Shown: positions 20,510 to 32,262 of the stretch, piece after piece | Position numbering within the stretch: position 1 is the first letter of the stretch | Layout: the number at the start of each line of letters is the position of its first letter | Assembly (NCBI RefSeq): GCF_001651805.1 | Contig: NZ_CP015839.1 | Span: forward strand, 4,030,001 to 4,094,000 | Reading direction: 5' to 3' | Origin: Marinobacterium aestuarii | GTDB taxonomy: Bacteria > Pseudomonadota > Gammaproteobacteria > Pseudomonadales > Balneatricaceae | DNA length: 64,000 nt | Made by a program: the position numbers and the translations under genes | The notes under the pieces: generated by a model | Database searches by the model: none | What the model was told of the DNA's origin: nothing | Seen by the model: the letters and a program-made list of their open reading frames with translations, nothing else

Positions 20510-21607
20510 TTAACCCGGCGGATAAATACATCGATCATGCGGCATACCGAATGTGTCCTGCCCGGAAATAGGTTTTTACCCGTTCTGGCCGACGTTGCAA
20601 TGTGAGCATGCACGATCGAGTGCGTTTCTTCAGGTCGTCAATCGAACGAACCGCCGGACCGCTGTGCACCATGTTCTTCAAATCGCAGTTCAAGTATTCA
20701 TCCGGGTTCAGTTCAGGCGAGTACGCGGGCAAAAAGAACACTTCCAGATAGCGCTTCACGGGCTTCTTTGCGAGCCAGCGCTTCACTATCTTGGCATGGT
20801 GGACGCGCAGGTTATCCAGAATCAGAAACACTTTGCCGGGCGTAGATTCGATCAGTGCCCGAAGAAATTTGATCAGAACCTTGGCGTTCATCATCGATTC
20901 GTACAGCATGAAACGCACGGTCCCCTGGTTGGTGATCGCCGAGATCATATTCAGTGATACGCGCTTGGCCGGCAGTGGCTGCACGGGCGTTTTGCCGATC
21001 GGAGCATAGCTACGGCCATGCTGGGTTGTATTCTTGATCCCGGTTTCATCACCCCAGAAAATCTGCGCGTTCTCTGCTTTGGCGCGCGCCTTGATTTGCG
21101 GATACTCCTCTTTTAGCCAAGCATCGACCCGGGCCGGGTTCTGTTCCCAGGCTTTCTTTAGCGGCTTCTGCGGCGAGAAGCCCCAGCGCTTGAGGTAGTC
21201 TCCCAGAGTCCGAACCGGAATGTCGATCCCCCAGAATTGCTTGATTAGCTGAGCGATAGCACGCCGCGTCCAGAGCGCAAAACCCAGTTTGTACTGATCC
21301 GGCATCTGGTCTTTAACCGCCTCAATGACACGCTGCTCCTGCGCCTCGGTCAGGCGACGCGGTTTGTTCTTGGGGCCCCGTTTTTGTACTGTCAAGGCCG
21401 CCTTGCCGCCGGCTTCATAACGCTGGTACCAGCGTCCAACAGTATCGGGGTGAACATTGAGCAGCTGCCCGATTTCACGGAAAGTTTTGCCTTTCAAACG
21501 GAGTCGAATGGCTTGCTGCCTGAGAAGTTCCTGTTGCTCTGTGCTGAGCTTGCGTGCGTCGGTATTCATGCGCACATTATATCAGACCTAAATTGCCGCC
21601 GGGTTAA
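20510..21607 (-). mobile_element. IS630-family insertion sequence
   Basis: About 1.1 kb. Terminal inverted repeats TTAACCCGGCGG at 20510-20521 and CCGCCGGGTTAA at 21596-21607. The TA dinucleotide at each end (20511-20512, 21605-21606) is consistent with IS630 target duplication of TA. It carries one intact transposase gene and sits at the left border of the accessory region. Confidence 0.88.
20535..21575 (-). CDS. IS630-family transposase
   Basis: 346 residues. N-terminal HTH (FREIGQLLNVHPDTVGRWYQRY), then a DDE catalytic domain: WGDETG (first Asp), LILDNLRVHH (second Asp) and SPELNPDEYLNCD (third acid). It is full length with no frameshift, so the element may be active. Start is ATG 21575 or 21569 (MNTDARK). 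Confidence 0.93.
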   Translation of the reverse strand: MRMNTDARKLSTEQQELLRQQAIRLRLKGKTFREIGQLLNVHPDTVGRWYQRYEAGGKAALTVQKRGPKNKPRRLTEAQEQRVIEAVKDQMPDQYKLGFALWTRRAIAQLIKQFWGIDIPVRTLGDYLKRWGFSPQKPLKKAWEQNPARVDAWLKEEYPQIKARAKAENAQIFWGDETGIKNTTQHGRSYAPIGKTPVQPLPAKRVSLNMISAITNQGTVRFMLYESMMNAKVLIKFLRALIESTPGKVFLILDNLRVHHAKIVKRWLAKKPVKRYLEVFFLPAYSPELNPDEYLNCDLKNMVHSGPAVRSIDDLKKRTRSCMLTLQRRPERVKTYFRAGHIRYAA

Positions 21608-22469
21608 TAACCCATTACCAATAACGACTCACCAATCACCCGCACCAACATCCATCAGCCGAACAGGCGACAGACAGGCCAAACGCGAACCGCGGCAGGA
21701 CAGACAGCGGCGCCGATGACGCTAGCAGCTAGCGTCAAAGAAGGCACACCGAAGAAGACTCAGAGGTACAGCTGCACGGAGGTAGCGCCTTTCAGCGAAC
21801 CAGCATCATGCCAAACGTAATAAGAGTGGCACCGTAAATAAGCTTTTCCACGAGTTCGATATCCAGGTGAAATGGGTGCTGCATGTGTGCCATGAGGCCT
21901 TTTAGTCCTGTCGGTTAGAGTTAAATTTAAGAAGGTCGGAGCTACGAACTGGGGCGGCATATGCCGTCTGGAGCGAGGCGTGTCACGACTTGAGGCGCGC
22001 GATTATAGAGTTTTTGTGCAGTGCGTCAATAGCCAAAAACAGAAATAGTTGCAAAGAGCGCAAAAATATTCTAGCCAGGGAAAAAACCTCTTTTTGCCCT
22101 CGTTTTCGAAGCAATTTCCGTACCCCTTCTGGCCCCTTCCCAGGCGTAATTTTCGCCCGTCAGTCAGGCCCACCGACGCGGTCTGAAGTGGCGAAAACGG
22201 TCGGTCCGGTGCCTGCAAAGCTGGCCCCTGCCGGAGTTAAAATCTCTCCGTTGCAGCTAGCCGCCCTGCCCCGCAAACGCCGGCACATCCGACGGTTCGC
22301 TGTTGCACCTTCTATCAGGGTCAAGAGTGGGGTACGGTTCACCCACATAGGTAACAGTTCAGTTCAACAACATGGGTAACACTTGGCGGGCTTGGTCGGT
22401 TGGTCTGTGAACAAAGACTGGTGGGAAGGGCCGCATAGCAGCGGTGCAGCCGGGTGTATCGAAGCGGTT
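21608..22469. other. Gene-poor spacer with a possible small ORF
   Basis: No long coding frame. It contains the candidate 33-aa frame at 21792-21893, an AT-rich stretch around 22000-22110, and near 22345-22385 two GTAACA copies (CATAGGTAACAGTT, CATGGGTAACACTT) that could be a decayed insertion-sequence end. Confidence 0.45.
21792..21893 (-). CDS. Possible 33-aa membrane miniprotein
   Basis: ATG at 21893 after AAAAGGCCTC, stop at 21792-21794. The peptide has a polar amphipathic start (HPFHLDIELVEKL) and a hydrophobic end (IYGATLITFGMMLV). Codon use resembles host genes. It stands alone between the IS630 element and the foldback repeats. It could be chance; no family recognised. Confidence 0.35.
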   Translation of the reverse strand: MAHMQHPFHLDIELVEKLIYGATLITFGMMLVR

Positions 22470-22714
22470 TGATTGTCCGGATTGCGCCTTGCTGGCGCGT
22501 TACTTTCTTTGCACGCGCAAAGAAAGTAACCAAAGAAAGGCGCCCCCGATGAAGCCTTTTCGCTGCGCTCTGACATCATTGTACGGGCGCAGCTAACGGC
22601 ACATCCTGTGCCTAATCTGCGGCTCGACAGTCCCTGTCTCCGCCCCTGCGGGCCTGATCGTACAATGACGCCAGTGCTCGCCGGCTTCATAAGGGGGATG
22701 AAAGCCGTTCTGAT
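22470..22714 (+). repeat. Foldback repeat R1
   Basis: About 245 bp, homologous to R2 (22935-23196) and, inverted, R3 (30361-30617). Elements in order: a 14-bp perfect hairpin (22499-22512 with 22517-22530); outer stem ATGAAGCC 22549-22556 with GGCTTCAT 22683-22690; middle stem TCATTGTACG 22576-22585 with CGTACAATGA 22659-22668; inner hairpin GGCACA-TCC-TGTGCC 22598-22612; conserved CGGCTCGACAGTCCCTGTCT; 3' end AGCCGTTCTGAT. Short frames on it are not protein-like. Confidence 0.85.
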
Positions 22715-22934
22715 AGTTTGAGTGATCTAATGAAACTTGCGCAGCCTGATTCCCTGCGAAAGCTTCGCGATGGCCGTAGAAGTCGCGCCCCGCGACGAAG
22801 CATTTTCGCTACGCTCTGGCACCTTGCTGCCGGCGTATTGTCGGCAAGCATCGTTGTGCTCGATGCGCTCAAGGGGATGACGTTAAATGGTGATTTGGCG
22901 GCTACCTGAATGATTATCGATACAAAGGTCGATA
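22715..22934. other. Spacer between foldback repeats R1 and R2
   Basis: 220 bp with no supported gene. It contains a GC-rich inverted stretch (TTGCTGCCGGCGTATTGTCGGCAAG class) that may be remnant repeat DNA. Confidence 0.4.
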
Positions 22935-23196
22935 TGTGGTTTTGGTGAAGTGCGTATTTCGCCTCCCGGCGACCTACTTTCCTTGTTATGCGACAAGGAA
23001 AGTAGGCAAAGGAAGCGCACCACCCATCAGCCGGCCTACGGCTTCACTGCGCGCCGGAACTTTGCTCCGGACGCAGCTAAGAGGACATCCATGTCCTCAA
23101 TCTGCGGCTCGACAGTCCCTGTCTCGCCCCTCTGGGTCTGATCGGAGCAAAATCCCGGTGCTCGTCGGCTGCTGAGGGGGATGAGAGCCGTTCTGA
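22935..23196 (+). repeat. Foldback repeat R2
   Basis: Same architecture as R1 with different paired bases: 14-bp hairpin CCTACTTTCCTTGT 22973-22986 with its complement 22993-23006; outer stem CAGCCG 23028-23033 with CGGCTG 23166-23171; middle stem TTTGCTCCG 23061-23069 with CGGAGCAAA 23143-23151; inner hairpin GAGGACAT-CC-ATGTCCTC 23081-23098; the shared CGACAGTCCCTGTC block; 3' end AGCCGTTCTGAT. Confidence 0.85.
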
Positions 23197-23850
23197 TATT
23201 TGGTCGCCAGGCGATACTAACGCCTGTACAGCCGGCAGCCCCTGTTGTAACTTCAATGAGTCCGTCACCATTTGGTAAGTACCCAGTAGACGGTCAGCAG
23301 GCATCGCAGCGGATGCGCCCTGCCACAAAACACCGCCGCGTCGCGCAACAAGAACCCCGCGCCCGGCATACATGGTAAAGCACCACCACAATCGTCAGCT
23401 GAGCACGGAAGCCAGGCTGGGTGATCATTCTCATTCACCCCACTCCCCCTCTTCTACACTCCCTGACCCGCGCCCAGCGCCTCTCGTATTCCGTCACAGG
23501 ACGGGCGGTAGCGTGGTTTTTCGACTTGATGGTGATTCGTGAATCGAGATCTGTTGTGGTAAAAAGCAAAAGACAAGACCCTGCACCTCGGATAAACAGC
23601 CTTGGAGGCCAGTATCCTGGTGTGTGACTAAAAATTTGCGGATACTTATTTTAAATCATGAAGTTACAAGGCATAGTAAAAAAGTGGATATGAGGCTTGG
23701 TGATCGTTTTGTAAGATTCAGGTCGATTGAGCAGATGGCCTCAATGGCTCATGTTGCCTAGCTTTGAGCCCGTTTTTGACGAAAAACCATCAGGGAATAC
23801 TGCCCTCGGGCAAATCGGCCTCCGAGGCTACGATACAAATGTTAAATTTA
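23197..23850. other. Left flank of the cassette array, no integrase
   Basis: 650 bp without a supported gene. At 23565-23590 there is an inverted relative (CAAAAGACAAGACCCTGC) of the GGTCAGGTCTT-CCTTTTG blocks found at 30194 and 30310 on the other side of the array. AGGGAATACTG occurs at about 23792 and again at about 23853, just before the first cassette gene. GTTAAAT at 23839-23845 could be a degraded core site. Confidence 0.45.
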
Positions 23851-23862
23851 TAAGGGAATACT

Positions 23863-24315
23863 GTGCCAACTAAGCTGCAAATGGAAGCTCTATATAACAG
23901 AGCAAAAGAAATGGCTATACACTCGCCTCAGATCGGATCAAAGCTAGCAGGAAACTGTACAACTATCAGTTATGGGATGTTAGGTGAAGCTCGGAAGCTT
24001 TTAGGGAATGATGTGAGGTTGGTCATAGGTTGGTTTCACTTTCAGGGGCAACCTCGTTTCTTTTTTTCGGATAAGACACTTAAATCGTGGATAAAAGGCG
24101 AGAAAAAGGAAAAGTACAATATTCATTGTTGGCTAGCCAAAGGTAATAAAATAATTGATTTAACTTTGGTAGATACTATCAAAGAAATTGATTCTAGCAT
24201 GATTGATGGTAATTTGAGTTATGTTGATTCTGATATAGCAAACCAGATTGGTATTAAATATAAAGAAAAGATGTCGGGTGATGAAGTCTTATTTAAAATA
24301 GGCTTGGCGCGATAA
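23863..24315 (+). CDS. Cassette gene 1: putative Cys-His-Asp thiol-fold protein
   Basis: 150 residues, GTG start at 23863 behind AAGGGA. Unrecognised family. Visible features are GNCTTISYG near residue 30, YNIHCWLAKG near residue 88 and IIDLTLVD near residue 99. The order Cys ... His ... Asp in a helix-then-strand context resembles papain- or transglutaminase-like thiol enzymes, where a Cys heads a helix and His and Asp lie on strands. This is inference from spacing only. attC1 begins at the stop. Confidence 0.72.
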   Translation: MPTKLQMEALYNRAKEMAIHSPQIGSKLAGNCTTISYGMLGEARKLLGNDVRLVIGWFHFQGQPRFFFSDKTLKSWIKGEKKEKYNIHCWLAKGNKIIDLTLVDTIKEIDSSMIDGNLSYVDSDIANQIGIKYKEKMSGDEVLFKIGLAR

Positions 24316-24316
24316 A

Positions 24317-24414
24317 ATTTAACAAGTTGCTTAAACGGAAAAAACAGCTGGCTTTTGTTCGTTCCTCACTAATTATAGCCAGCTATTTTATTGCCGCTTA
24401 GCAAAGCGTTATGT
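24317..24414 (+). repeat. attC1
   Basis: ATTTAAC at 24317-24323 and GTTATGT at 24408-24414, with arms TTGCTTAAACGG and CCGCTTAGCAA. The next gene's ATG (24411) lies inside the 3' core site. Confidence 0.85.
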
Positions 24415-24722
24415 GTACTCTTGAGAATATGGATATAGATAGCACTGAAAGCGAAATTGTCGGGGAATGGATTGAGCAGTCGGCTGGTAAGGTCGTTGCG
24501 AACCATTCGTGTGAGCGTATAGATTGGCTTGTAAAATATGCACTAAAGGAAATCTCCGTTAACGGAGATAGCTGGGAGATTCTGTATCAAAATCCAAAAG
24601 ATGGTGCGTACTGGGAAATGAGTTATCCCTCTAGTCATATGCATGGTGGCGGCCCTCCAAAGTTATCTAAACTTTCGAGCGCACTGGCAAAGGAAAAATA
24701 TGGCGCAAGTAGCAACACATAA
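24411..24722 (+). CDS. Cassette gene 2: Imm27-type immunity protein
   Basis: 103 residues. ESEIVGEWIEQSAGKVVAN, the ERIDWLVK stretch and the C-terminal PSSHMHGGGPPKL match Imm27 immunity proteins, which neutralise toxins of polymorphic or contact-dependent systems. No toxin partner is in the window, so it is an orphan immunity gene, a common cassette cargo. It starts inside the 3' core of attC1; an alternative ATG is at 24429 (MDIDST). Confidence 0.82.
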   Translation: MCTLENMDIDSTESEIVGEWIEQSAGKVVANHSCERIDWLVKYALKEISVNGDSWEILYQNPKDGAYWEMSYPSSHMHGGGPPKLSKLSSALAKEKYGASSNT

Positions 24723-24791
24723 CAAGGCGGTCAATGTCGCCTACGGCTGGACAAAGTGCTGCGCACTTTGCCCATTACCTTGTCGTTAGAG
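24717..24791 (+). repeat. attC2
   Basis: ACATAAC 24717-24723 and GTTAGAG 24785-24791; arms AAGGCGGTCAATG and CATTACCTTGTC; 75 bp. Confidence 0.85.
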
Positions 24792-24814
24792 CGGTGAGTC
24801 AGGGAGAGCAAAGA

Positions 24815-25498
24815 GTGAACGTTTTATTTTGGCTCGGAATAGCATTCACTTTAGTTGCGCCACTTTTAATTGGCATACATTTCGATGACCAATCGACAAG
24901 CTGGGTAGCGGCACTATGTGGAGCGTTCGCAACCTTTATGGCTAAGATCGGCGATTTGGCGGAGCTTTCGCTTGGACCAGTGAAAGCAAAAATGAAGGAG
25001 CAAATCGAAAGGGCGGCGGCAACAATTGATCAACTAAGACAGGTTGCCACCACTACATCTGAAGCTACTCTCACTGACCTCATGGCAGGCAGCTTTATGG
25101 GTGGAATGTCGCTAAAAAAGCGACTGGAACTTCACGACAACATCATTGAGGCGTTGAGGGAGATTGGTGCAACTGAGGCCCAACTAGCGCTCGCAGAGAA
25201 AGACTGGAAGAAAGGTATATCGGTAATCTACCAGCGTGCAATACGAGATGCTGTCGAAGAAAGGCCAGAGCCCAGCAAAATTAATGTAAATGCATCTGAT
25301 GAGCAAAAGAAGGCAGGAAAGGAAATAAATGACCTGATGAATTTTGAAAGTTGGGAGTGTCCTTCTCCAAACCAAATAAGGTCAGTATTGAGGAAGTATC
25401 AGATTGAATCGGCGTCGGCTGATAAATGGATATCCGATTACGAGTTCTTTCTAGAAAGTAATGTTATCAGGGATAGAAAAATCTTTGAGCAGGTATAG
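24815..25498 (+). CDS. Cassette gene 3: two-TM membrane protein, unknown
   Basis: 227 residues from GTG 24815, which follows AGGGAGA. The open frame back to 24734 runs through attC2 and is not used. Two TM helices (about residues 2-20 and 32-50) anchor a mostly helical cytoplasmic region with heptad-like KAKMKEQIERAAATIDQLRQ, then a C-terminal domain with ISVIYQRAIRD. Unrecognised. A helical anchored protein of this type could be an effector or sensor; nothing here decides. Confidence 0.75.
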   Translation: MNVLFWLGIAFTLVAPLLIGIHFDDQSTSWVAALCGAFATFMAKIGDLAELSLGPVKAKMKEQIERAAATIDQLRQVATTTSEATLTDLMAGSFMGGMSLKKRLELHDNIIEALREIGATEAQLALAEKDWKKGISVIYQRAIRDAVEERPEPSKINVNASDEQKKAGKEINDLMNFESWECPSPNQIRSVLRKYQIESASADKWISDYEFFLESNVIRDRKIFEQV

Positions 25499-25558
25499 CT
25501 CTAACAAGAAAAGTCAGGGCGACGCCAGAAAGCGGCGCGCCTGCTTTTGGCGTTAAGG
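25499..25558 (+). repeat. attC3
   Basis: CTCTAAC 25499-25505 and GTTAAGG 25552-25558; arms AAGAAAAGTCAGG and CCTGCTTTTGG; 60 bp, the shortest class of attC. Confidence 0.85.
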
Positions 25559-25920
25559 TGCAAAAGCGAATGAGCATCGAAGTGGCATCAATGCCGAGAT
25601 ATGAAAAAGTCCAAATGATATTGGGTTTTGTTTTTGGATTAATGCTTCTTGCTTATGGCATTTACGCTTTAATGTTTGCGAGCTGTACTGTTGTGGGGCG
25701 CGGGAATCCACCAATGGGAACATTTGTGACTTTCCAGGGGTTAGAGGCAAGGTTGCTAAGTACAATTTATTTGGGTTCCGGTTTATGGCTAATTGCTGGT
25801 ACCGTTCTCAGAAAAATTAATAAAGGTGTTGGTATCAAGCAGCTTTCATGGCTTGGGGCAATCACATTGCTGTTTGGCATGCTTTCATTGGTGCTCATCC
25901 TATGTCTGCCACTGTTCTAG
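25558..25920 (+). CDS. Cassette gene 4: three-TM membrane protein
   Basis: 120 residues if begun at GTG 25558; ATG 25570 (MSIEVAS) or ATG 25591 are alternatives. Three hydrophobic segments at about residues 20-42, 68-86 and 95-118, with a polar loop GRGNPPMGTF. No family recognised. The gene fills the cassette between attC3 and attC4. Confidence 0.68.
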   Translation: MQKRMSIEVASMPRYEKVQMILGFVFGLMLLAYGIYALMFASCTVVGRGNPPMGTFVTFQGLEARLLSTIYLGSGLWLIAGTVLRKINKGVGIKQLSWLGAITLLFGMLSLVLILCLPLF

Positions 25921-25929
25921 CTCCGGGCA

Positions 25930-26017
25930 CCTTAACAAGCGCATGTTGTTCGCCCCTGCGGGGCTGGGACCTCCGTTCCGCTGCGCTTCACTACGGCCCC
26001 AAATGCGGGCGTTATAC
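25930..26017 (+). repeat. attC4
   Basis: CCTTAAC 25930-25936 and GTTATAC 26011-26017; arms AAGCGCATGTTG and CAAATGCGGG; 88 bp. Confidence 0.85.
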
Positions 26018-26035
26018 ATCATAAGGAGAGTTTCT

Positions 26036-27517
26036 TTGGAATTTGAGGAATATTACAAATCACTAGGTTTAGAGACTTACCCTTTTTCGGTCTATACAGC
26101 AGAATCGGAAACGGAGAAAGGTGATAGCATCTATAAAAAGCCTCAAAACTACTCTGTAATTGATGAAGGAATTAAGAGTAGCTCAATAATTATCTCCGGC
26201 GAGAGAGGAACTGGTAAAACTGCACTGAATCTAGATATAAGCCGGAGAAAGAAAACTGTAGGAACCCTGCTAGTAAAAATCGAAGAATTTTCAAAATTAG
26301 AAGAGAGCTATACTCCTGAACGATTATATGAATTTTTAATAGAATCTATTGCTGGTGAATTCTTTCACGCAATGAGCTTTAATCCAGCTAGCCTCTGGAA
26401 ATATAATAAGGATGAGCGGATAGATCTGTCGATGTATCTTCATCGATTTGTTAAATCCTCTACAAAAGCACAATTAACTGAGCAGATTAAAAAAATACAA
26501 AATGGGCTACTTAAACGTACGGCTATAGGTCTGTATAACACTACACGAGTTGCACTTAATTATGGGCTAAAAGCAGCAACTAAAGTTGCTAGTGATGCAC
26601 TTACTAAACATTTTTCAGCATTGCCTGAGTTCGACTCAGGAGATTCAGAGTATTTTAAGAAGTTAGAATCAGAAGTAGATGAGAGTTTTACAGATGAGGA
26701 ACGGAGCTTTTTTTATTTAAGCAAACTGTGCTCTCTGATAAGAAAGTCCAAGATATCAGAAATTGTAGTAATAATTGATAAACTTGATGAAGATCCTAGA
26801 TTTAAAAATGATTCAGAATCAATTTCTAATTACTTAGAAGGTATTGCTTCCAACAATAAGGTTATGGTTAATGACTTATTCAAAGTAGTACTTTTTGTTT
26901 GGTCAACTCCATTTAATTCAATAAAGTCAAATGTAAGAACACAAAAGTTAATATTTCAGCCGCTTTCATGGACCCCAGAAGCGCTGAAAGAAGCGACTGG
27001 GAAAAGGCTTTCTGCGTTTTCTAATAAAAAAGTGAATCATATCGAAGAACTATTTTCACCTGATGGAGTTGAGGTTCTTAACGATCTTGTTGCTATGAGC
27101 AATGAGAACCCTCGCGATCTATGGCACTTAATTGACAAATCAATAAAATCCCAATACGAAATAGATCACTCAAGCAAAATATCTAGCCAAGCGGTGAGCA
27201 TCGGTATTAGGGATTTCGTTCAACAATTTAATTACTACGAGTACTATCCAAGGAAAGCGAAAGCCCGCGCGGATTCTATGGATGTGTACTCGTATATAAA
27301 ACATCTTATGAAGTTGGACTCGGATAGATTTACCAAAAACAAGTTGAACGAGATGGCCAAGACAGGCGGCTCTACCAACAACTATGTAGTTGCCATGGAA
27401 AATATGGGGCTAATAAAGAAAACTGGAGATAAATCTAGCCAAGGCGGCGTGATTTATATGATTAAAGACCCAAAAGTCCAATACGCACAAGAAAATGGCA
27501 TCGAAGTAGGTAGCTGA
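26036..27517 (+). CDS. Cassette gene 5: P-loop ATPase (Sll1717/KAP-like)
   Basis: 493 residues from TTG 26036, chosen because AAGGAG at 26023-26028 has 7-nt spacing and the upstream frame runs through attC4. Walker A is SGERGTGKTAL near residue 55, Walker B-like VVIIDKLDED near residue 240. The C-terminal 150 residues look like a winged-helix region. This resembles the Sll1717-family P-loop ATPases of unknown role, often in variable genome regions. It is exceptionally long for a cassette. Confidence 0.78.
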   Translation: MEFEEYYKSLGLETYPFSVYTAESETEKGDSIYKKPQNYSVIDEGIKSSSIIISGERGTGKTALNLDISRRKKTVGTLLVKIEEFSKLEESYTPERLYEFLIESIAGEFFHAMSFNPASLWKYNKDERIDLSMYLHRFVKSSTKAQLTEQIKKIQNGLLKRTAIGLYNTTRVALNYGLKAATKVASDALTKHFSALPEFDSGDSEYFKKLESEVDESFTDEERSFFYLSKLCSLIRKSKISEIVVIIDKLDEDPRFKNDSESISNYLEGIASNNKVMVNDLFKVVLFVWSTPFNSIKSNVRTQKLIFQPLSWTPEALKEATGKRLSAFSNKKVNHIEELFSPDGVEVLNDLVAMSNENPRDLWHLIDKSIKSQYEIDHSSKISSQAVSIGIRDFVQQFNYYEYYPRKAKARADSMDVYSYIKHLMKLDSDRFTKNKLNEMAKTGGSTNNYVVAMENMGLIKKTGDKSSQGGVIYMIKDPKVQYAQENGIEVGS

Positions 27518-27518
27518 T

Positions 27519-27608
27519 GTATAACAAGAGCAACCAGTATGCTCCCTTCGGTCGCGGGACGCCCAAAACGCTGCGCTTATTTGGCCGCCCCTGTTGCTGG
27601 CGTTAGGT
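27519..27608 (+). repeat. attC5
   Basis: GTATAAC 27519-27525 and GTTAGGT 27602-27608; arms AAGAGCAACCAG and CCCTGTTGCTGG; 90 bp. Confidence 0.85.
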
Positions 27609-27615
27609 GTAAATA

Positions 27616-28473
27616 ATGTCAGACGATAATTCCACATCATTAGTTAACCTTGGTGAGCTTTCTAAGCCTGCCAATACATTAATTGAAAAGGTCTCATCAG
27701 CAATTGGTGGTGTATTTGAACCTTGGCAAATAAAACGTATTGCAAAAGCAGAGGCAGAAGCAAATTTGATTAAAGCAGAATCAGAGATACAAATTACTGA
27801 CCTGCATCGCAGAGCTATGCACCGCTTTGTCGAAGAAGAAGCTAATCGCCAAGAAAATATGGAGGAAATCACCAAAAAATCTATTCCTCTCCTTGAGGAA
27901 CAATCTGATCCTGCAAAAATGGAAGACGATTGGGTCACAAACTTCTTTGATAAGTCTAGGATTGTTTCTGATGAAGATATGCAGGCTTTATGGGCTAATG
28001 TTCTTGCAGGCGAAGCAAACAAGCCAGGCTCATTTTCTAGAAGGACTGTTAACCTACTCAGTGACCTTGATAAAAGAGATGCTGAGCTTTTTCAGACTTT
28101 ATGCAGGTTCGGCTGGGCTGTTGGAAATTTCACCCCTTTAATCTTTGATAGCCAAGCCCCAATCTATAATAACTTAGGGATTAATTTTAATAGCTTATCT
28201 CATTTGGATAGCTTAGGGCTCATTCAGTTTAATTCACTTGCGGGATTTAGTAGGACAGGGTTACCAAAAAGTTTTGCGGTGACGTATTGCGGACAACCTT
28301 TGCAATTGGTAATAAAAGAAGGCCAAGAAAACCAGATATCTATTGGACAAATTCTGCTTACCCAGGCAGGGCAGGAGCTCGCTCAAATCGTTAAAGTTCC
28401 CGGTGTTCAAGGTTTCTATGACTACGTAAAAGAACAGTGGAAATCGCATGCTCCGAGTGAAAAAAGCACCTAA
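27616..28473 (+). CDS. Cassette gene 6: DUF2806 protein
   Basis: 285 residues. The central DDWVTNFFDKSRIVSDEDMQALWANVLAGE followed by PGSFSRRTVNLLS is the DUF2806 signature (key: DW..nFFD, DedMQ.LWa..LAGE). The N-terminal 90 residues are helical and charged. DUF2806 proteins are uncharacterised and sit in variable regions; a role in phage or stress response is speculation. Stop overlaps attC6. Confidence 0.82.
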   Translation: MSDDNSTSLVNLGELSKPANTLIEKVSSAIGGVFEPWQIKRIAKAEAEANLIKAESEIQITDLHRRAMHRFVEEEANRQENMEEITKKSIPLLEEQSDPAKMEDDWVTNFFDKSRIVSDEDMQALWANVLAGEANKPGSFSRRTVNLLSDLDKRDAELFQTLCRFGWAVGNFTPLIFDSQAPIYNNLGINFNSLSHLDSLGLIQFNSLAGFSRTGLPKSFAVTYCGQPLQLVIKEGQENQISIGQILLTQAGQELAQIVKVPGVQGFYDYVKEQWKSHAPSEKST

Positions 28474-28539
28474 CAAATTGCTGCACGCGGAAAAGTTACT
28501 CGCTGCGCTCCCAACTTTCCGGTGAGCAAAGCGTTAAGC
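28468..28539 (+). repeat. attC6
   Basis: ACCTAAC 28468-28474 and GTTAAGC 28533-28539, both perfect consensus matches; arms AAATTGCTGCACG and GGTGAGCAAAGC; 72 bp. Confidence 0.9.
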
Positions 28540-28570
28540 GTCAATAGCCACATCACTAAAGGAGATAGAT

Positions 28571-28762
28571 ATGGCAACCTGGGATGAGTATGACCTTGAA
28601 GAAGAAGAGTGCCCGAGTTGTGGTGCTCTGTATTCCGTACGATACAAAGAGTTACCGTTGAAAGACAAAGATAGTTTTCATTGCCAGTGCGGCGAACTAA
28701 TGCGCTCTTGGAAGGAAACAGGAATGTATATGTATACACTTATACAGAACGGAGAGTCCTAA
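28571..28762 (+). CDS. Cassette gene 7a: zinc-ribbon small protein
   Basis: 63 residues behind AAAGGAG. CPSCG at about residue 15 and CQCGE at about residue 38 form a four-Cys zinc-ribbon-like site. Its stop directly abuts the next ATG, so 7a and 7b are a two-gene cassette, translated together. No known family. Confidence 0.72.
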   Translation: MATWDEYDLEEEECPSCGALYSVRYKELPLKDKDSFHCQCGELMRSWKETGMYMYTLIQNGES

Positions 28763-28948
28763 ATGAACGAGGAAATTTCCGTCGAATATCAAGGAAAAAT
28801 ATACACTGCTGAGTATTCTGTAATCGGTGACGAACTTACGGTCTATTTACCAGATGGTTCAACGAGAAGCACATTCCTTACGGGTGGCCTAAAACCTGAA
28901 ACTGCGGCTGCAACTCATATCAAATCTTATGCAAAGCAAAACACTTAA
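28763..28948 (+). CDS. Cassette gene 7b: small beta-rich protein
   Basis: 61 residues. Predicted strands VEYQGKIYTAEYSVIGDEL and ELTVYLPDGS suggest a small beta sheet. It starts one base after the 7a stop. Two genes in one cassette, adjacent and small, resemble toxin-antitoxin or regulator pairs, but neither product matches a toxin family I know. Confidence 0.68.
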   Translation: MNEEISVEYQGKIYTAEYSVIGDELTVYLPDGSTRSTFLTGGLKPETAAATHIKSYAKQNT

Positions 28949-29032
28949 CAAAGCCGTCAACGTTCAGCCCAACTGCGTTGGGCTCGGACCTTCGCTGCTA
29001 CGCAGCTTCGGCCCGTTACGGCGGCGTTATGA
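28943..29032 (+). repeat. attC7
   Basis: ACTTAAC 28943-28949 and GTTATGA 29026-29032; arms AAAGCCGTCAACG and CGTTACGGCGG; 90 bp. Confidence 0.88.
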
Positions 29033-29053
29033 GTAATAAGTATCGAGGAAATA

Positions 29054-29443
29054 ATGATCACTGGTAGCTGTCTTTGCGGGAATGTGAAATACGAGATATC
29101 GGGTAAGGTAGGTGACATAGTTCACTGTCATTGTGTTACTTGCCGGAAAGCGCATGGTTCAGCATTTTCTAGTGTCGCAGCTGTAAATGAGGCTGAGTTC
29201 AAGCTAATTGGAAGTAAAAACCTAAAATCTTTCGAGTCTTCCAAAGGTAAAAAGCGCTACTTCTGCTCTAACTGTGGCACCCAAATATATGCAAAGAGAG
29301 ATAATGCTCAGTATATAATATTGCGGTTGGGCTCTCTAGATGATGACCCAATGTCTAGTGAAAAGAATCATATATGGGTTTCTCAGAAAGCAAGTTGGTA
29401 TTCAATAACGAATAACTTACCTGCGTATCTAGAATTTGAATAA
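29054..29443 (+). CDS. Cassette gene 8: GFA/CENP-V family zinc protein
   Basis: 129 residues. GSCLCGNVKYE, VHCHCVTCRK and RYFCSNCGTQ give the Cys-rich zinc-binding pattern of the GFA family, formerly annotated as glutathione-dependent formaldehyde-activating enzymes. GFA proteins are very common cassette cargo; a physiological substrate is not established for most. AGGAAATA precedes the ATG. Confidence 0.88.
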   Translation: MITGSCLCGNVKYEISGKVGDIVHCHCVTCRKAHGSAFSSVAAVNEAEFKLIGSKNLKSFESSKGKKRYFCSNCGTQIYAKRDNAQYIILRLGSLDDDPMSSEKNHIWVSQKASWYSITNNLPAYLEFE

Positions 29444-29446
29444 AAC

Positions 29447-29555
29447 TCATAACAAGGCACTGTTGTCGAAAAACTTCGTTTTTCTGGCCCCGGGGCTACG
29501 CGCATTTTTGTGCTCTTGGCTGGGCAGAATAAGCTCAGACCGAAAGGTGTTATTT
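29447..29555 (+). repeat. attC8, degraded
   Basis: TCATAAC at 29447-29453 is a good 5' core but the 3' side has only GTTATTT at 29549-29555 with poor arm pairing. It may be a decayed or fused attC. Confidence 0.5.
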
Positions 29556-29617
29556 AAGTTCGCATAATTACGAAGCAGTACACTAAATTGGTTAAAGGCT
29601 ATGAATGAGAAACTAAA
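29556..29617. other. ORF-less cassette
   Basis: Between the degraded attC8 and attC9 there is only about 60 bp with no usable gene (the ATG at 29601 gives 14 codons running into attC9). Confidence 0.5.
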
Positions 29618-29676
29618 ACATAACAAATCGAGCCAAGGGACGTAGCAAAGCTGCGCCCCTGCTTGAGGCGTTAAAG
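29618..29676 (+). repeat. attC9
   Basis: ACATAAC 29618-29624 and GTTAAAG 29670-29676; arms AAATCGAGCCAAGG and CCTGCTTGAGG; 59 bp. Confidence 0.85.
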
Positions 29677-29691
29677 CCACAGGTAGGTTTC

Positions 29692-29988
29692 ATGAAATTA
29701 TTCCTTTTCGTTATGACTTTTTTGTTTTCAGCCAGTCTCTGGGCGAATGATTCTTGGCCCGAAGGTTCCAAAAGATCATATATAGATCGGTGCGCCCAAA
29801 GCATGCAGTCTCAAGGACTACCAGGATCTATGGCACGGTCGTACTGTACGTGTCTTGCAAATGGAATGGAGTCAGAGTTTGGAATGCGGGAGTACGACGC
29901 GATGATGAAGGCCCAGCCAAACCCCAATGGAAGCTCTGTAGATCGACGACTTTATGGGGTTGTATCCGTGTGTGGGAAAAAGCTTTAA
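29692..29988 (+). CDS. Cassette gene 9: periplasmic Cys-rich small protein
   Basis: 98 residues with a signal peptide (residues 1-18, MKLFLFVMTFLFSASLWA). The mature part has four Cys: one at SYIDRCAQ, two at SYCTC and one at VVSVCG, suggesting two disulfides and a compact helical domain. This form is typical of small exported cassette proteins of unknown role. Confidence 0.75.
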   Translation: MKLFLFVMTFLFSASLWANDSWPEGSKRSYIDRCAQSMQSQGLPGSMARSYCTCLANGMESEFGMREYDAMMKAQPNPNGSSVDRRLYGVVSVCGKKL

Positions 29989-30083
29989 CAAGTCGCTGTA
30001 GTGCGCGGCCGATGGCCGCCGGACGCCCTTTTCATTGCGGCTTCGCCTCCATTACAGGGGCGCCGCTAAGCTCAGCGTTAAAC
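29983..30083 (+). repeat. attC10
   Basis: CTTTAAC 29983-29989 and GTTAAAC 30077-30083; arms AAGTCGCTG and CGCTAAGCTCAG; 101 bp. Confidence 0.85.
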
Positions 30084-30099
30084 ATACAAGGAGGGTTCG

Positions 30100-30192
30100 G
30101 TGCTAAATCAAATCTATAAGTGTCTCTTCCTTTTAGTGGTTATATTTGGTGGCTATAAATTTTATGAAGTTATTTTTGAGGCAAGGTCATAG
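30100..30192 (+). CDS. Cassette gene 10: 30-aa single-TM miniprotein
   Basis: GTG 30100 behind AAGGAGGG, one of the strongest ribosome-binding sites in the window, with TAG at 30190-30192. The peptide is one TM helix (CLFLLVVIFGGYKFY). No attC follows, so this is a truncated last cassette. It could also be a membrane toxin-like miniprotein; its tiny size prevents family calls. Confidence 0.6.
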   Translation: MLNQIYKCLFLLVVIFGGYKFYEVIFEARS

Positions 30193-30193
30193 G

Positions 30194-30331
30194 CGGGGTC
30201 AGGTCTTTCCTTTTGCCCCTTTCCTATCAAATAGTGCCTTCGTAAAGCTTAGTTCGCTTTAATATATATCCAGAAAAAAGCCAGGAAGCCGGCAAGCACA
30301 CGGGACGCAGGGGGCAGGTCTTGCCTTTTGA
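30194..30331 (+). repeat. Paired GGTCAGGTCTT-CCTTTTG blocks
   Basis: GGTCAGGTCTTTCCTTTTG near 30198 and GGCAGGTCTTGCCTTTTG near 30313, about 115 bp apart in the same direction, with an inverted relative at 23565-23590. Such blocks often border REP-associated (IS200-like) elements; no transposase remains. Confidence 0.5.
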
Positions 30332-30360
30332 CTCATTAAGTAGTTCTGGCGCCGAAACCT

Positions 30361-30617
30361 CAGAACGGCTCCCACCCCTTATGAAGCCGGCGAGCACTGG
30401 GGTCATTTTTCGAATTGGCCCGAAGGGGCGAGACAGGGACTGTCGAGCCGCAGATTAGGAACAGGATGTTCCGTTAGCTGCGCCCTAAAAATGGCCTCAG
30501 AGCGCAGCGAAAAGGCTTCATCGGGGCGCGTTTCCTTTGCCTACTTTCCTTGTCGCGTAACAAGGAAAGTAGGTCGCCGAGAGGCGAAATACAGACTCAA
30601 TCAAAACCACTAACCGA
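30361..30617 (-). repeat. Foldback repeat R3 (inverted relative to R1/R2)
   Basis: Same architecture as R1/R2 but on the other strand: 14-bp hairpin 30540-30553 with 30560-30573; outer stem 30381-30388 with 30514-30521; middle stem GGTCATTTTT 30401-30410 with AAAAATGGCC 30487-30496 (one wobble); inner hairpin GGAACA-GGA-TGTTCC 30458-30472. It closes the cassette region on the right, adjacent to the IS3-type element. Confidence 0.85.
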
Positions 30618-30709
30618 CCCGTTTAGCACCCAAGCCCCCGGTGTCAGGGTAGTTGTCGCCTGATCAGTTTCACCTAAATCAAAGCACCGGGGACGGAAAG
30701 AGTCATGCG

Positions 30710-31210
30710 ATGCGACGTTATTCACCCGAGCGTAAAGAAGCGCTGCTGAAGAAGCTTTTGCCGCCCCACAATATGTCTGTGGCCGAGCTCGCCCGCCAGG
30801 AAGGCATCTCCGATGTAACCCTGTATGCTTGGCGAAAACAGGCCAAAGCGGGAGGTGCTGCGGTGCCCGGAGATCAAAAGTTAACGGATAACTGGTCAGC
30901 TGAATCCAAGCTGGCGGTGGTGATTGAGACCGCCGCGCTGTCTGAAATCGAGCTGAGCGAATACTGCCGCAGTAAAGGGTTGTATCCCCAACAGGTCAAA
31001 GCGTGGCGTGACGCCTGTCTGTCGGGTCAGCAGACGGCCAAGGCCCAACGTCAGCTCGATCGCGAACAGGCCAAGGCCGACAAGAAACGTATCCGCGAAC
31101 TGGAGCGTGAACTCAGACGCAAGGACAAGGCACTGGCCGAGGCGGCCGCGATCCTGGTGCTGCGAAAAAAGCTCAATGCCTACTGGGGGGACGACAGCGA
31201 GGACAGCTAA
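30710..31210 (+). CDS. IS3-type transposase OrfA (HTH subunit)
   Basis: 166 residues from ATG 30710. Two HTH-like segments (MSVAELARQEGISDVTLYAWRK and a second near ELSEYCRSKGLYPQQVKAWR) and a C-terminal coiled-coil (KRIRELERELRRKDKALAEA). It binds the element ends. Translation can slip into the orfB frame at A-AAA-AAG, giving the fused transposase. Confidence 0.9.
   Translation: MRRYSPERKEALLKKLLPPHNMSVAELARQEGISDVTLYAWRKQAKAGGAAVPGDQKLTDNWSAESKLAVVIETAALSEIELSEYCRSKGLYPQQVKAWRDACLSGQQTAKAQRQLDREQAKADKKRIRELERELRRKDKALAEAAAILVLRKKLNAYWGDDSEDS
31165..31171 (+). promoter_or_regulatory. -1 programmed frameshift site A-AAA-AAG
   Basis: The heptamer A AAA AAG is in phase with orfA (AAA at 31166, AAG at 31169). 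After a -1 slip the reading frame is open through 31216 and into orfB at 31258 without a stop. Confidence 0.8.
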
Positions 31211-31257
31211 CGGCGCTGTCGGTCCGGCAGGACTATGTCGCTTGGATTGCTGAAGCC

Positions 31258-32262
31258 ATGGCCGCCGGCGCCCGAAAACAAGTCGCCTGCAAGGAACTGG
31301 CGATTAGTCTGCGCTCGCTGCAACGCTGGACACAGGAAGGCGCGCCGAAAGCCGATGGTCGCACGACCACGCCGCGGCCCACGCCGGCGAATGCCCTGAC
31401 TGATGCTGAACGCGAGACGATCTTGCAGCTCTGCAACAGCACGGAATACGCGCATCTTCCACCGAGCCAGATCGTGCCCCGGCTGGCCGATCAGGGCCGT
31501 TATCTCGCATCTGAAAGCAGCTTTTATCGGGTGCTGCATGCCGCCGATCAGCAGCATCGCCGGGGCCGCGTTCAGCGCCCGAAAAGGCATCCGGCACCCA
31601 CGACGCACGCTGCGAACGGGCCGAACCAGCTTTGGTCTTGGGACATCACGTATTTACCCTCGCCGGTGCGGGGCCAGTATTACTATCTGTATCTGATCGA
31701 GGACCTTTACAGTCGCAAGGGCGTGGGTTGGGAGGTGCATGAACAGGAATGCGGCGATAAGGCCGCAGCTCTGCTGCAACGCAGCGTGCTCAGCGAGCAG
31801 TGCCTGCATCAGCCGCTGGTACTGCACTCGGATAACGGCGCGCCGATGAAGTCCGTCACACTGCTAAGCAAAATGTACGACCTGGGGATCACACCGTCGC
31901 GTGGGCGACCGCGGGTCAGCAATGACAACGCCTTCTCGGAGTCGTTGTTCAGAACGCTGAAATACTGCCCGCAGTGGCCACATAATGGCTTCACCAGCCT
32001 AGATGAGGCACGGGCCTGGGTGAGAGACTTCATACGCTGGTACAACCACGAACATCGTCATAGTCGCATCCGCTTCGTCACGCCGGCCGAACGGCATCGT
32101 GGACAGGATCATGAAGTGTTGGCTCGGCGAGATGCGCTGTACCAGCAAGCCCGTTCTGAACGACCGGAACGCTGGTCAGGCAACACGCGTAACTGGCAGC
32201 CGGTTGGGATGGTGATGCTCAACCCGGAGAAGCAGGAAACGACTCAGAATAAGGCTGCATAA
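31258..32262 (+). CDS. IS3-type transposase OrfB (catalytic, DDE)
   Basis: 334 residues from ATG 31258, or a longer fused OrfAB through the slip site. The rve integrase core: WSWDITYLP (first Asp), LHSDNGAPM (second Asp), and FSESLFRTLKY (Glu). The C-terminal region contains WYNHEHRHSRIRF, an IS3-family hallmark. The gene is intact. Confidence 0.92.
   Translation: MAAGARKQVACKELAISLRSLQRWTQEGAPKADGRTTTPRPTPANALTDAERETILQLCNSTEYAHLPPSQIVPRLADQGRYLASESSFYRVLHAADQQHRRGRVQRPKRHPAPTTHAANGPNQLWSWDITYLPSPVRGQYYYLYLIEDLYSRKGVGWEVHEQECGDKAAALLQRSVLSEQCLHQPLVLHSDNGAPMKSVTLLSKMYDLGITPSRGRPRVSNDNAFSESLFRTLKYCPQWPHNGFTSLDEARAWVRDFIRWYNHEHRHSRIRFVTPAERHRGQDHEVLARRDALYQQARSERPERWSGNTRNWQPVGMVMLNPEKQETTQNKAA

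Follow-up and report, generated by a model that had tools for sequence, protein, structure and literature searches.

A dispersed repeat family in Marinobacterium and other Gammaproteobacteria with a conserved RNA-like fold and hairpins resembling CsrA-binding sites

Introduction

RNAs that sequester the regulator CsrA/RsmA, such as CsrB, RsmX/Y/Z and RsmW, are encoded by one or a few fixed genes. Repetitive extragenic palindromic sequences (REPs) are short simple hairpins, and integron attC sites, which conserve structure rather than sequence, are shorter than the elements described here and end in core-site boxes. A published Rsm (CsrA/RsmE-type) site reads A/U-CANGGANG-U/A (PMC4353343). Among the nearest described families is TwoAYGGAY (RF01731), which a 2010 survey mentions only in a table, with nothing seen there on mobility or pairing (PMC2864571), and for which a later paper proposes CsrA binding (PMC4333381). 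Here, we analyse three foldback repeats, R1, R2 and R3, that lie around an integron cassette array in a 64,000-nucleotide stretch of Marinobacterium aestuarii (the window; positions 4,030,001-4,094,000 within one 5.19 Mb contig). They belong to a family of dispersed bacterial repeats of about 250-450 bp with a conserved RNA-like fold, and this family is probably mobile.

The repeats share some features with each of the known systems and differ in others. Like the CsrA/RsmA-sequestering RNAs, they carry a hairpin-loop GGA near CANGGANG, and RsmW, a member of Rfam clan CL00106, gives weak matches to three copies; unlike these RNAs, they are dispersed, can number 50 or more and have two conserved GGA hairpins in every copy. 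Similar to REPs and bacterial interspersed mosaic elements (BIMEs) with their REP-associated tyrosine transposases (RAYTs, Y1 type), they are dispersed intergenic hairpins that form inverted pairs in the same taxa, but they are multibranched folds of ~300 nucleotides and Y1 genes mostly do not adjoin them. They resemble bacterial miniature inverted-repeat transposable elements (MITEs) in being non-coding, multi-copy, intergenic and missing from some relatives, whereas terminal repeats and target duplications are not established for the unit itself, and the MITE that adjoins some copies is a separate element. By eye, and without a dedicated attC search, they have no core-site boxes of the attC kind.

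A conserved fold maintained by two-sided changes

The initial annotation described R1 (22470-22714), R2 (22935-23196) and the inverted R3 (30361-30617) as repeats whose stems change in sequence while keeping their pairing, and took this as a sign of selection for folding. Reading the sequence directly, we found all three copies at these positions, together with every middle stem and inner hairpin quoted for them. The blocks said to be shared are so in part: CGGCTCGACAGTCCCTGTCT is identical in the three copies, while the 3' block ends in AGCCGTTCTGAT in R1 and R2 but in AGCCGTTCTGAG in R3. On the plus strand, R1 runs from a GGTTTGAT block through hairpin 0, the leading hairpin and a third strand into a core of helices P1-P6, and ends in the AGCCGTTCTGAT tail. 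Other copies inspected by eye mostly keep the same order of outer hairpin, GGTTTGATT-like block, GC-rich hairpin, leading hairpin and core.

We compared three alignments: 34 copies of this genome in a plain MAFFT alignment (the own-genome alignment), and sets of 36 copies and of 63 distinct copies (the latter from other genera of a class sample) that, having been fitted to a model, are biased in its favour. The own-genome and 36-copy alignments have seven rows in common. A hand-written structure pairs 90.3% of the cells in the own-genome alignment, as opposed to 80.9% after shuffling, and two-sided changes number 144 where shuffles give 42.6. Slid controls reach 31-42% pairing. Among 37 matches that include more distant genera, 39 of 49 pairs show two-sided change. 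The 63-copy alignment raises this to 44 of 48 pairs, with 87.4% of cells paired (control, 59.1%) and a covariation score of 0.607, compared with 0.148 for the control and at most 0.088 for slid versions. The covariation of the family is overwhelming. Folded as RNA, most of R1 (22494-22714) is also more stable than all 200 dinucleotide shuffles (z -7.27 for the plus and -6.95 for the minus strand).

With many copies and two-sided changes above both shuffled and slid controls, selection for folding is strongly supported, and enlarging the set left covariation well above background. The leading hairpin covaries as had been proposed; the third strand that follows it is an addition. As far as tested, the repeats do not look like fragments of a protein-coding element: their stems change on both sides, and they contain indels and inserts of many lengths. 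The two open reading frames (ORFs) of at least 100 amino acids over R1/R2 (22364-22690; 23077-23391, minus) gave no Pfam or NCBIfam match at E 0.01. The observation of structured foldback repeats is confirmed, and its interpretation as a whole is partly supported.

A multi-copy and patchy family

R1-R3 are three of at least 52 copies in the M. aestuarii genome, 47 of them found with nhmmer and 5 more with a covariance model; BLAST returned 75 matches, counting partial ones. These copies are dispersed over the whole chromosome, often as clusters of a single orientation. A covariance-model search of related genomes, proposed alongside the initial annotation, found matches in all six other genomes of the genus, from 2 to at least 48 per genome. 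In M. rhizophilum, eight same-orientation matches lie inside 3.1 kb (L075, 679-3778).

Within a class sample, one model of the family reached E 1e-5 or better in at least 38 of 369 genomes, the own one included (best seven candidates per genome). A further family model matched 24 of 398 genomes in a phylum sample, again including the own one, and all 24 belong to the same class or closer. Among named records, Aeromonas caviae has a full-length model match and Pseudoalteromonas a weaker one, and one exact family pattern occurs in 24 stretches of named genomes, all from M. sedimentorum, M. profundum and M. rhizophilum. No match was found in a model search of Burkholderia and Pasteurella stretches, in phages searched for the repeat, or in viral contigs scanned with one pattern; sequence searches of plasmids gave either no match or short matches confined to the leading hairpin, after which the model picked up the Aeromonas caviae and Pseudoalteromonas matches.

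Flank searches in the six other genus genomes recovered many orthologous sites. At ten sites picked for clear gaps, 25 relative sequences have spacers of 0-224 bases where M. aestuarii has a copy, and at one of the ten another relative (L161) does carry the copy. The family is multi-copy and patchy in its distribution, and some relatives have no copy at the same site. An optional insert of ~50 bases (ATGGCCATGGATGGCCGGTAGCC...TTTTCTGCT) on the 3' side of P1 and an optional CCTTCAAGGT stem are common to otherwise different copies (L005, L030, L034), which points to module exchange.

Inner hairpins and the proposed RNA strand

On the strand opposite to the one described in the initial annotation (minus in the case of R1), the P4 and P5 loops both contain GGA in 59 of 63, 36 of 36 and 33 of 34 copies in the 63-copy, 36-copy and own-genome alignments, respectively. 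The stems of these two hairpins change almost freely while the GGA loops stay. We counted as a strict motif CANGGANG or the one-base-shorter CAGGANG. In the 63-copy alignment, it occurs in P4 and in P5 in 54/63 copies each and in both loops in 47/63; both loops carry it in 20/36 copies of the 36-copy alignment, and P4 does in 33/34 of the own genome. A CANGGANG-type motif in hairpin loops, as expected of a CsrA/RsmA-binding RNA, is present; in the own genome, the second loop has it in only 3/34 copies but keeps its GGA. Judged by sequence, the two inner hairpins resemble CsrA/RsmA binding sites.

The functional strand of the repeats is probably this minus strand, a conclusion that sequence and modelling make likely but not proven. 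At the four-base P2 junction between core helices, the own-genome alignment has 43 A-C cells and 1 G-T cell on the plus strand (A-C being G-U on minus), and the 36-copy alignment has 24 and 2. The minimum-energy fold of the R1 minus strand recovers the comparative structure, while the plus strand pairs otherwise in place of P2 and P3. Folding energy is lower on the minus strand in 24 versus 8 copies of the own-genome alignment and in 26 versus 10 of the 36-copy alignment, and flank controls are even (16/18 for the own-genome and 31/31 for the 63-copy alignment). All seven matches to Rfam clan CL00106 in 20 diverse loci likewise fall within family copies, on their minus strand.

A third strand beside the leading hairpin

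The leading hairpin is followed by a tract that forms a candidate third strand and follows the purine arm of the hairpin. Tracts are recognisable in 67 copies; 26 of these are asymmetric and hence informative, whereas the arm is symmetric in 32 and the tail in 9. The R1 tract is symmetric and by itself uninformative on mirror versus direct order. The third strand mirrors the arm in all 26 informative copies (22 distinct strings) and repeats it directly in none. A cruder test by the longest shared string is ambiguous: the mirror string is longer in 23 copies, the direct one in 11, with 11 ties, in the 63-copy alignment, and the own-genome alignment gives 17 direct, 3 mirror and 4 ties. Read on the minus strand, the tract would be rich in U and C and run parallel to the purine arm, the common type of RNA triplex.

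In addition, the loop of the hairpin complements the bases just past the third strand, as in R2 (TGCG with CGCA) and R3 (CGCG with CGCG). In the 63-copy alignment, the longest match averages 4.22 (45/63 copies with a clear hairpin), compared with at most 3.78 in 300 swaps of tails between copies; the own genome gives 4.25 (24/34 copies) against at most 4.04 with swapped tails. Loop and tail also compensate for each other's changes, with GCGTG/CACGC versus GCACG/CGTGC and CGCCC/GGGCG versus TGCCC/GGGCA. Because of this loop pairing and the mirrored third strand, the leading hairpin looks, from its sequence, like a triple-helix pseudoknot. At about 1320-1500 of L114, two 5' modules of the repeat are fused in head-to-head orientation at a single leading hairpin, as though recombination had joined them there.

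Facing pairs, cargo and inversion

Among the 63 genomes with any copy (leaving out G000-G003 and G006), opposite-strand neighbours within 3 kb face each other 3' to 3' in 28 of 31 cases and 5' to 5' in 3 (p 4.6e-6); the same set has 8 same-direction neighbours. The three 5'-to-5' pairs that break the rule belong to G065 (one) and G220 (two; L219, L326). The M. aestuarii genome has 14 same-direction and 2 facing neighbours within 3 kb, and because same-direction clusters dominate it, the 3'-to-3' rule fails for Marinobacterium as a whole. That the repeats bracket the cassette array, as the initial annotation stated, is true at the window, where R1/R2 and R3 stand in the same sense as the bracketing pairs elsewhere, but it is one case of a genome-wide family and not specific to the array. 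We rejected a reading of the repeats as components of the integron: the array comes with its own attC-like sites, and copies occur all over the chromosome.

From core to core, the interiors of facing pairs measure 9-170 bp when short and 407-2,475 bp when longer. We read nine of the ten that exceed 400 bp: in eight there is a single small gene-like ORF, whole or in pieces, and the ninth contains metG, which as a core gene may be there by chance. Four of the eight interior proteins searched have Pfam names (DUF4760, T5orf172, HEPN_AbiU2 and an ion channel). The ~5 kb bracketed by copies in M. profundum include a Y1 gene as well as a reverse transcriptase. By eye, the unit is inverted in place between related species in G181 versus G427, and likewise in G211 versus G321, where one arm is mostly lost.

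Candidates for a mobilising enzyme were sought among Y1 transposases and reverse transcriptases. Y1 transposases are present in 16/16 carriers and also in 5/14 control genomes. We discarded a Y1/RAYT mobiliser, as these genes mostly do not lie beside repeats: of 20 stretches around Y1 genes, two contain a clear copy, one about 3.5 kb from the Y1 gene and the other in a copy-rich region, and one has a weak match (E 0.016). A reverse transcriptase was likewise set aside, with RVT_1 found in just 7/16 carriers, although draft genomes may lack some of these genes. The motifs GGGGTCAGGTCTT and GGGGCAGGTCTTG at about 30196-30216 and 30305-30330 of the window resemble motifs that adjoin RAYT-like Y1 genes of G181 and G018. 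A separate MITE of ~100 bp with TAGAGCAYTTTCA ends occurs both free-standing (L114, 1201-1620; L113, 1430-1531) and beside several repeat copies.

Relation to TwoAYGGAY and other families

Rfam detects no family at gathering score on the whole window or on the stretch with R1-R3. On 20 diverse loci, TwoAYGGAY scores 42.6, 39.0, 34.2 and 33.9 bits at a cut-off of 43; at E <=1, the CL00106 matches of these loci comprise the four TwoAYGGAY and three weak RsmW hits (best E 0.0017, five >0.05). As in TwoAYGGAY, an outer stem closes two GGA-loop hairpins on the minus strand, the hosts are Gammaproteobacteria, and the model match to that strand is full-length, whereas the TwoAYGGAY matches leave the leading hairpin uncovered. 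We do not file the repeats under TwoAYGGAY, as their scores stay below its gathering threshold and five Marinobacterium loci show no match to it even at E 10. Their mode of action would appear to be similar to that of TwoAYGGAY.

Two intergenic repeats of Pseudomonas fluorescens, R200 (320 bp) and R26 (352 bp), whose sizes and copy numbers have been tabulated (PMC2718517), could be members of the family. Size and copy number, the two properties compared through that table, would fit, and genomes of 4-7 Mb from the same order carry family members. Literature searches for the family or its motifs found no description of it.

Features of the window

The coordinates of the repeat features are collected in Table 1. 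Between R2 and R3, an integron cassette array occupies 23863-30100 of the window, with attC-like sites between genes (e.g., 29990-30085), and its proteins include Imm27, DUF2806 and GFA. A DDE_3-type transposase lies to the left of the repeats (20535-21575), and a gene for an rve-type transposase lies to the right of R3 (30653-32262).

Table 1. Positions of the repeat copies and their parts in the window
Feature	Position	Strand	Basis or remark
R1, full-length copy	22466..22714	- (proposed RNA strand minus)	Sequence, family alignment, minus-strand fold with P1-P6
R1 hairpin 0 (GCGCCTTGCTGGCGC)	22484..22498		Sequence
R1 leading hairpin (TTACTTTCTTTGC ... GCAAAGAAAGTAA)	22500..22529		Sequence; with third strand also in other genera
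R1 third strand (CCAAAGAAAG) and loop-complementary bases (GCGC)	22530..22544		Sequence
R1 core	22548..22696	-	Pair counts; P1 = 22548-22556 with 22683-22696
R1 P2	22577-22585 with 22659-22667	-	P3-P6 nested inside
R1 P4	22598..22612	-	Minus-strand GGCACAGGATGTGCC, loop CAGGATG
R1 P5	22626..22638	-	Minus-strand GACAGGGACTGTC, second GGA loop, last G of CANGGANG missed
Divergent fragment of an additional copy, lying between R1 and R2	22788..22880 (end approximate)		17 bits against core profile
R2, full-length copy of second subtype (CCACCCATCAGCCGG stem)	22935..23196	-	Sequence, profile search, alignment
R2 leading hairpin (22973-23006) and third strand with loop complement (23007-23021)	22973..23021		Mirror type
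R2 P4 (23081-23098) and P5 (23111-23123), two GGA hairpins	23081..23123	-	Loop count
R3, inverted full-length copy	30361..30617	+ (proposed RNA strand plus)	Sequence, profile search
R3 leading hairpin (30540-30573) and third strand with loop complement (30525-30539)	30525..30573		Sequence
R3 P5 (30432-30444) and P4 (30458-30472), two GGA hairpins	30432..30472	+	Loop count

Discussion

We tentatively propose, with a rough probability of 0.4, that R1-R3 belong to a mobile repeat family that encodes a CsrA-binding-like RNA on the strand opposite to the one originally described. RNA would be transcribed from the GGA strand of each copy, which would present two adjacent GGA hairpins to a CsrA/RsmA dimer and thereby titrate or tether CsrA/RsmA, while the putative triple-helix pseudoknot would stabilise one RNA end. 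The paired unit would move and invert by means of an enzyme supplied in trans, and the integron cassettes, with R1/R2 on one side and R3 on the other, would represent this pairing on a large scale. A bolder and unlikely extension is that these are class-wide selfish RNA elements, in which two divergently read RNAs, each with a pseudoknot and a CsrA-binding hairpin pair, form the ends of an invertible unit; this unit would take up single cargo genes, and its copy number would tune the global post-transcriptional regulator of the host.

Several observations weigh against a mobile family of CsrA-binding-like RNAs. Regarding mobility, no mobilising enzyme was found among the Y1 and reverse transcriptase candidates tested, and unit ends and target duplications are not pinned down, the spacers in relatives being short, poorly alignable and diverged. 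As for the RNA, the P5 loop of the own genome is CAGGGACTG in 31/34 copies, so that both loops are full in only 3/34, and this missing last motif base lowers our confidence in CsrA binding; the five Marinobacterium loci without a TwoAYGGAY match count on the same side, and a sponge present in fifty copies would be out of the ordinary. The choice of strand is affected as well. Wobbles in the 63-copy alignment favour plus (116 G-T and 46 A-C on plus), with 43 of the 116 G-T cells in three pairs, two of them loop-closing, in an alignment fitted to a plus-strand model. The hand structure alone has no wobble preference (27/32 in the own-genome and 51/56 in the 36-copy alignment), and the P2 junction columns behind the 43-to-1 count were added once the minus-strand fold had been seen. 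In the 63-copy alignment, this junction is unusable (6 G-T and 4 A-C in 10 copies), and the energy difference is not significant (37 versus 26, p 0.18).

The alternative that survives best, possible though doubtful, is that the fold acts as DNA. Copies would then serve as recognition ends, single-stranded or cruciform, of a foldback element with two arms; a transposase or recombinase acting in trans would read the hairpins, with the GGA/TCC loops as protein contacts on DNA. The predominance of 3'-to-3' pairs (28 to 3) with cores 9 to 2,475 bp apart fits such an element, as do the single small ORF or its pieces in eight of nine interiors, the two in-place inversions and the lack of a consistent wobble preference in the broad set. 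However, both the wobbles (43 to 1) and the folding energies point to an RNA strand in Marinobacterium. The loops also look like a known motif of RNA binding, and no linked recombinase came to light in the 20 Y1 stretches or with RVT_1, which was found in only 7/16 carriers. The two readings, a CsrA-like RNA and DNA ends, may hold together.

We consider it improbable that the copies are passive passengers: cargo of ordinary MITEs and insertion sequences, distributed by the transposases of these elements as well as by recombination, whose fold is a relic of an earlier RNA. Several copies do carry ends of the ~100 bp MITE, flank modules are shuffled, single-orientation clusters are common in Marinobacterium, and one comparison (c852103 versus L170) shows a TA duplication, which belongs to the outer, separate MITE only. 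Yet the unit is found with other flanks in the own genome and in other families, and its stems still pair despite near-total sequence change across the class. Drift would break this pairing, and the maintained covariation thus weakens the explanation. Least credible is a role as bidirectional terminators or mRNA 3'-end stabilisers accumulating downstream of genes: 32 of 47 copies follow a same-strand ORF of at least 80 amino acids and only 5 lie in a divergent gap (2 of the 47, without an upstream ORF in the stretch, were scored as opposite), but by eye, with no terminator scan run, the hairpins lack a U-run behind them, the copies in co-directional gaps show no clear bias (16 sense versus 10 antisense, the latter including the 2 uncertain ones), and such a role needs neither conserved GGA loops nor a third strand.

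If the repeats do encode CsrA-binding-like RNAs, a common repeat of Gammaproteobacteria would tie mobile DNA to the Csr/Rsm network, and a genome would gain or lose binding sites of this regulator through transposition. The family would also offer a natural triple-helix pseudoknot with many variants that is easily tested, along with a two-armed unit capable of flipping and of carrying small genes, among them genes of the defence type. Even without the Csr link, a strongly covarying family that stays below every Rfam cut-off in the loci tested deserves annotation, which is all the more worthwhile as repeat copies generate spurious ORFs.

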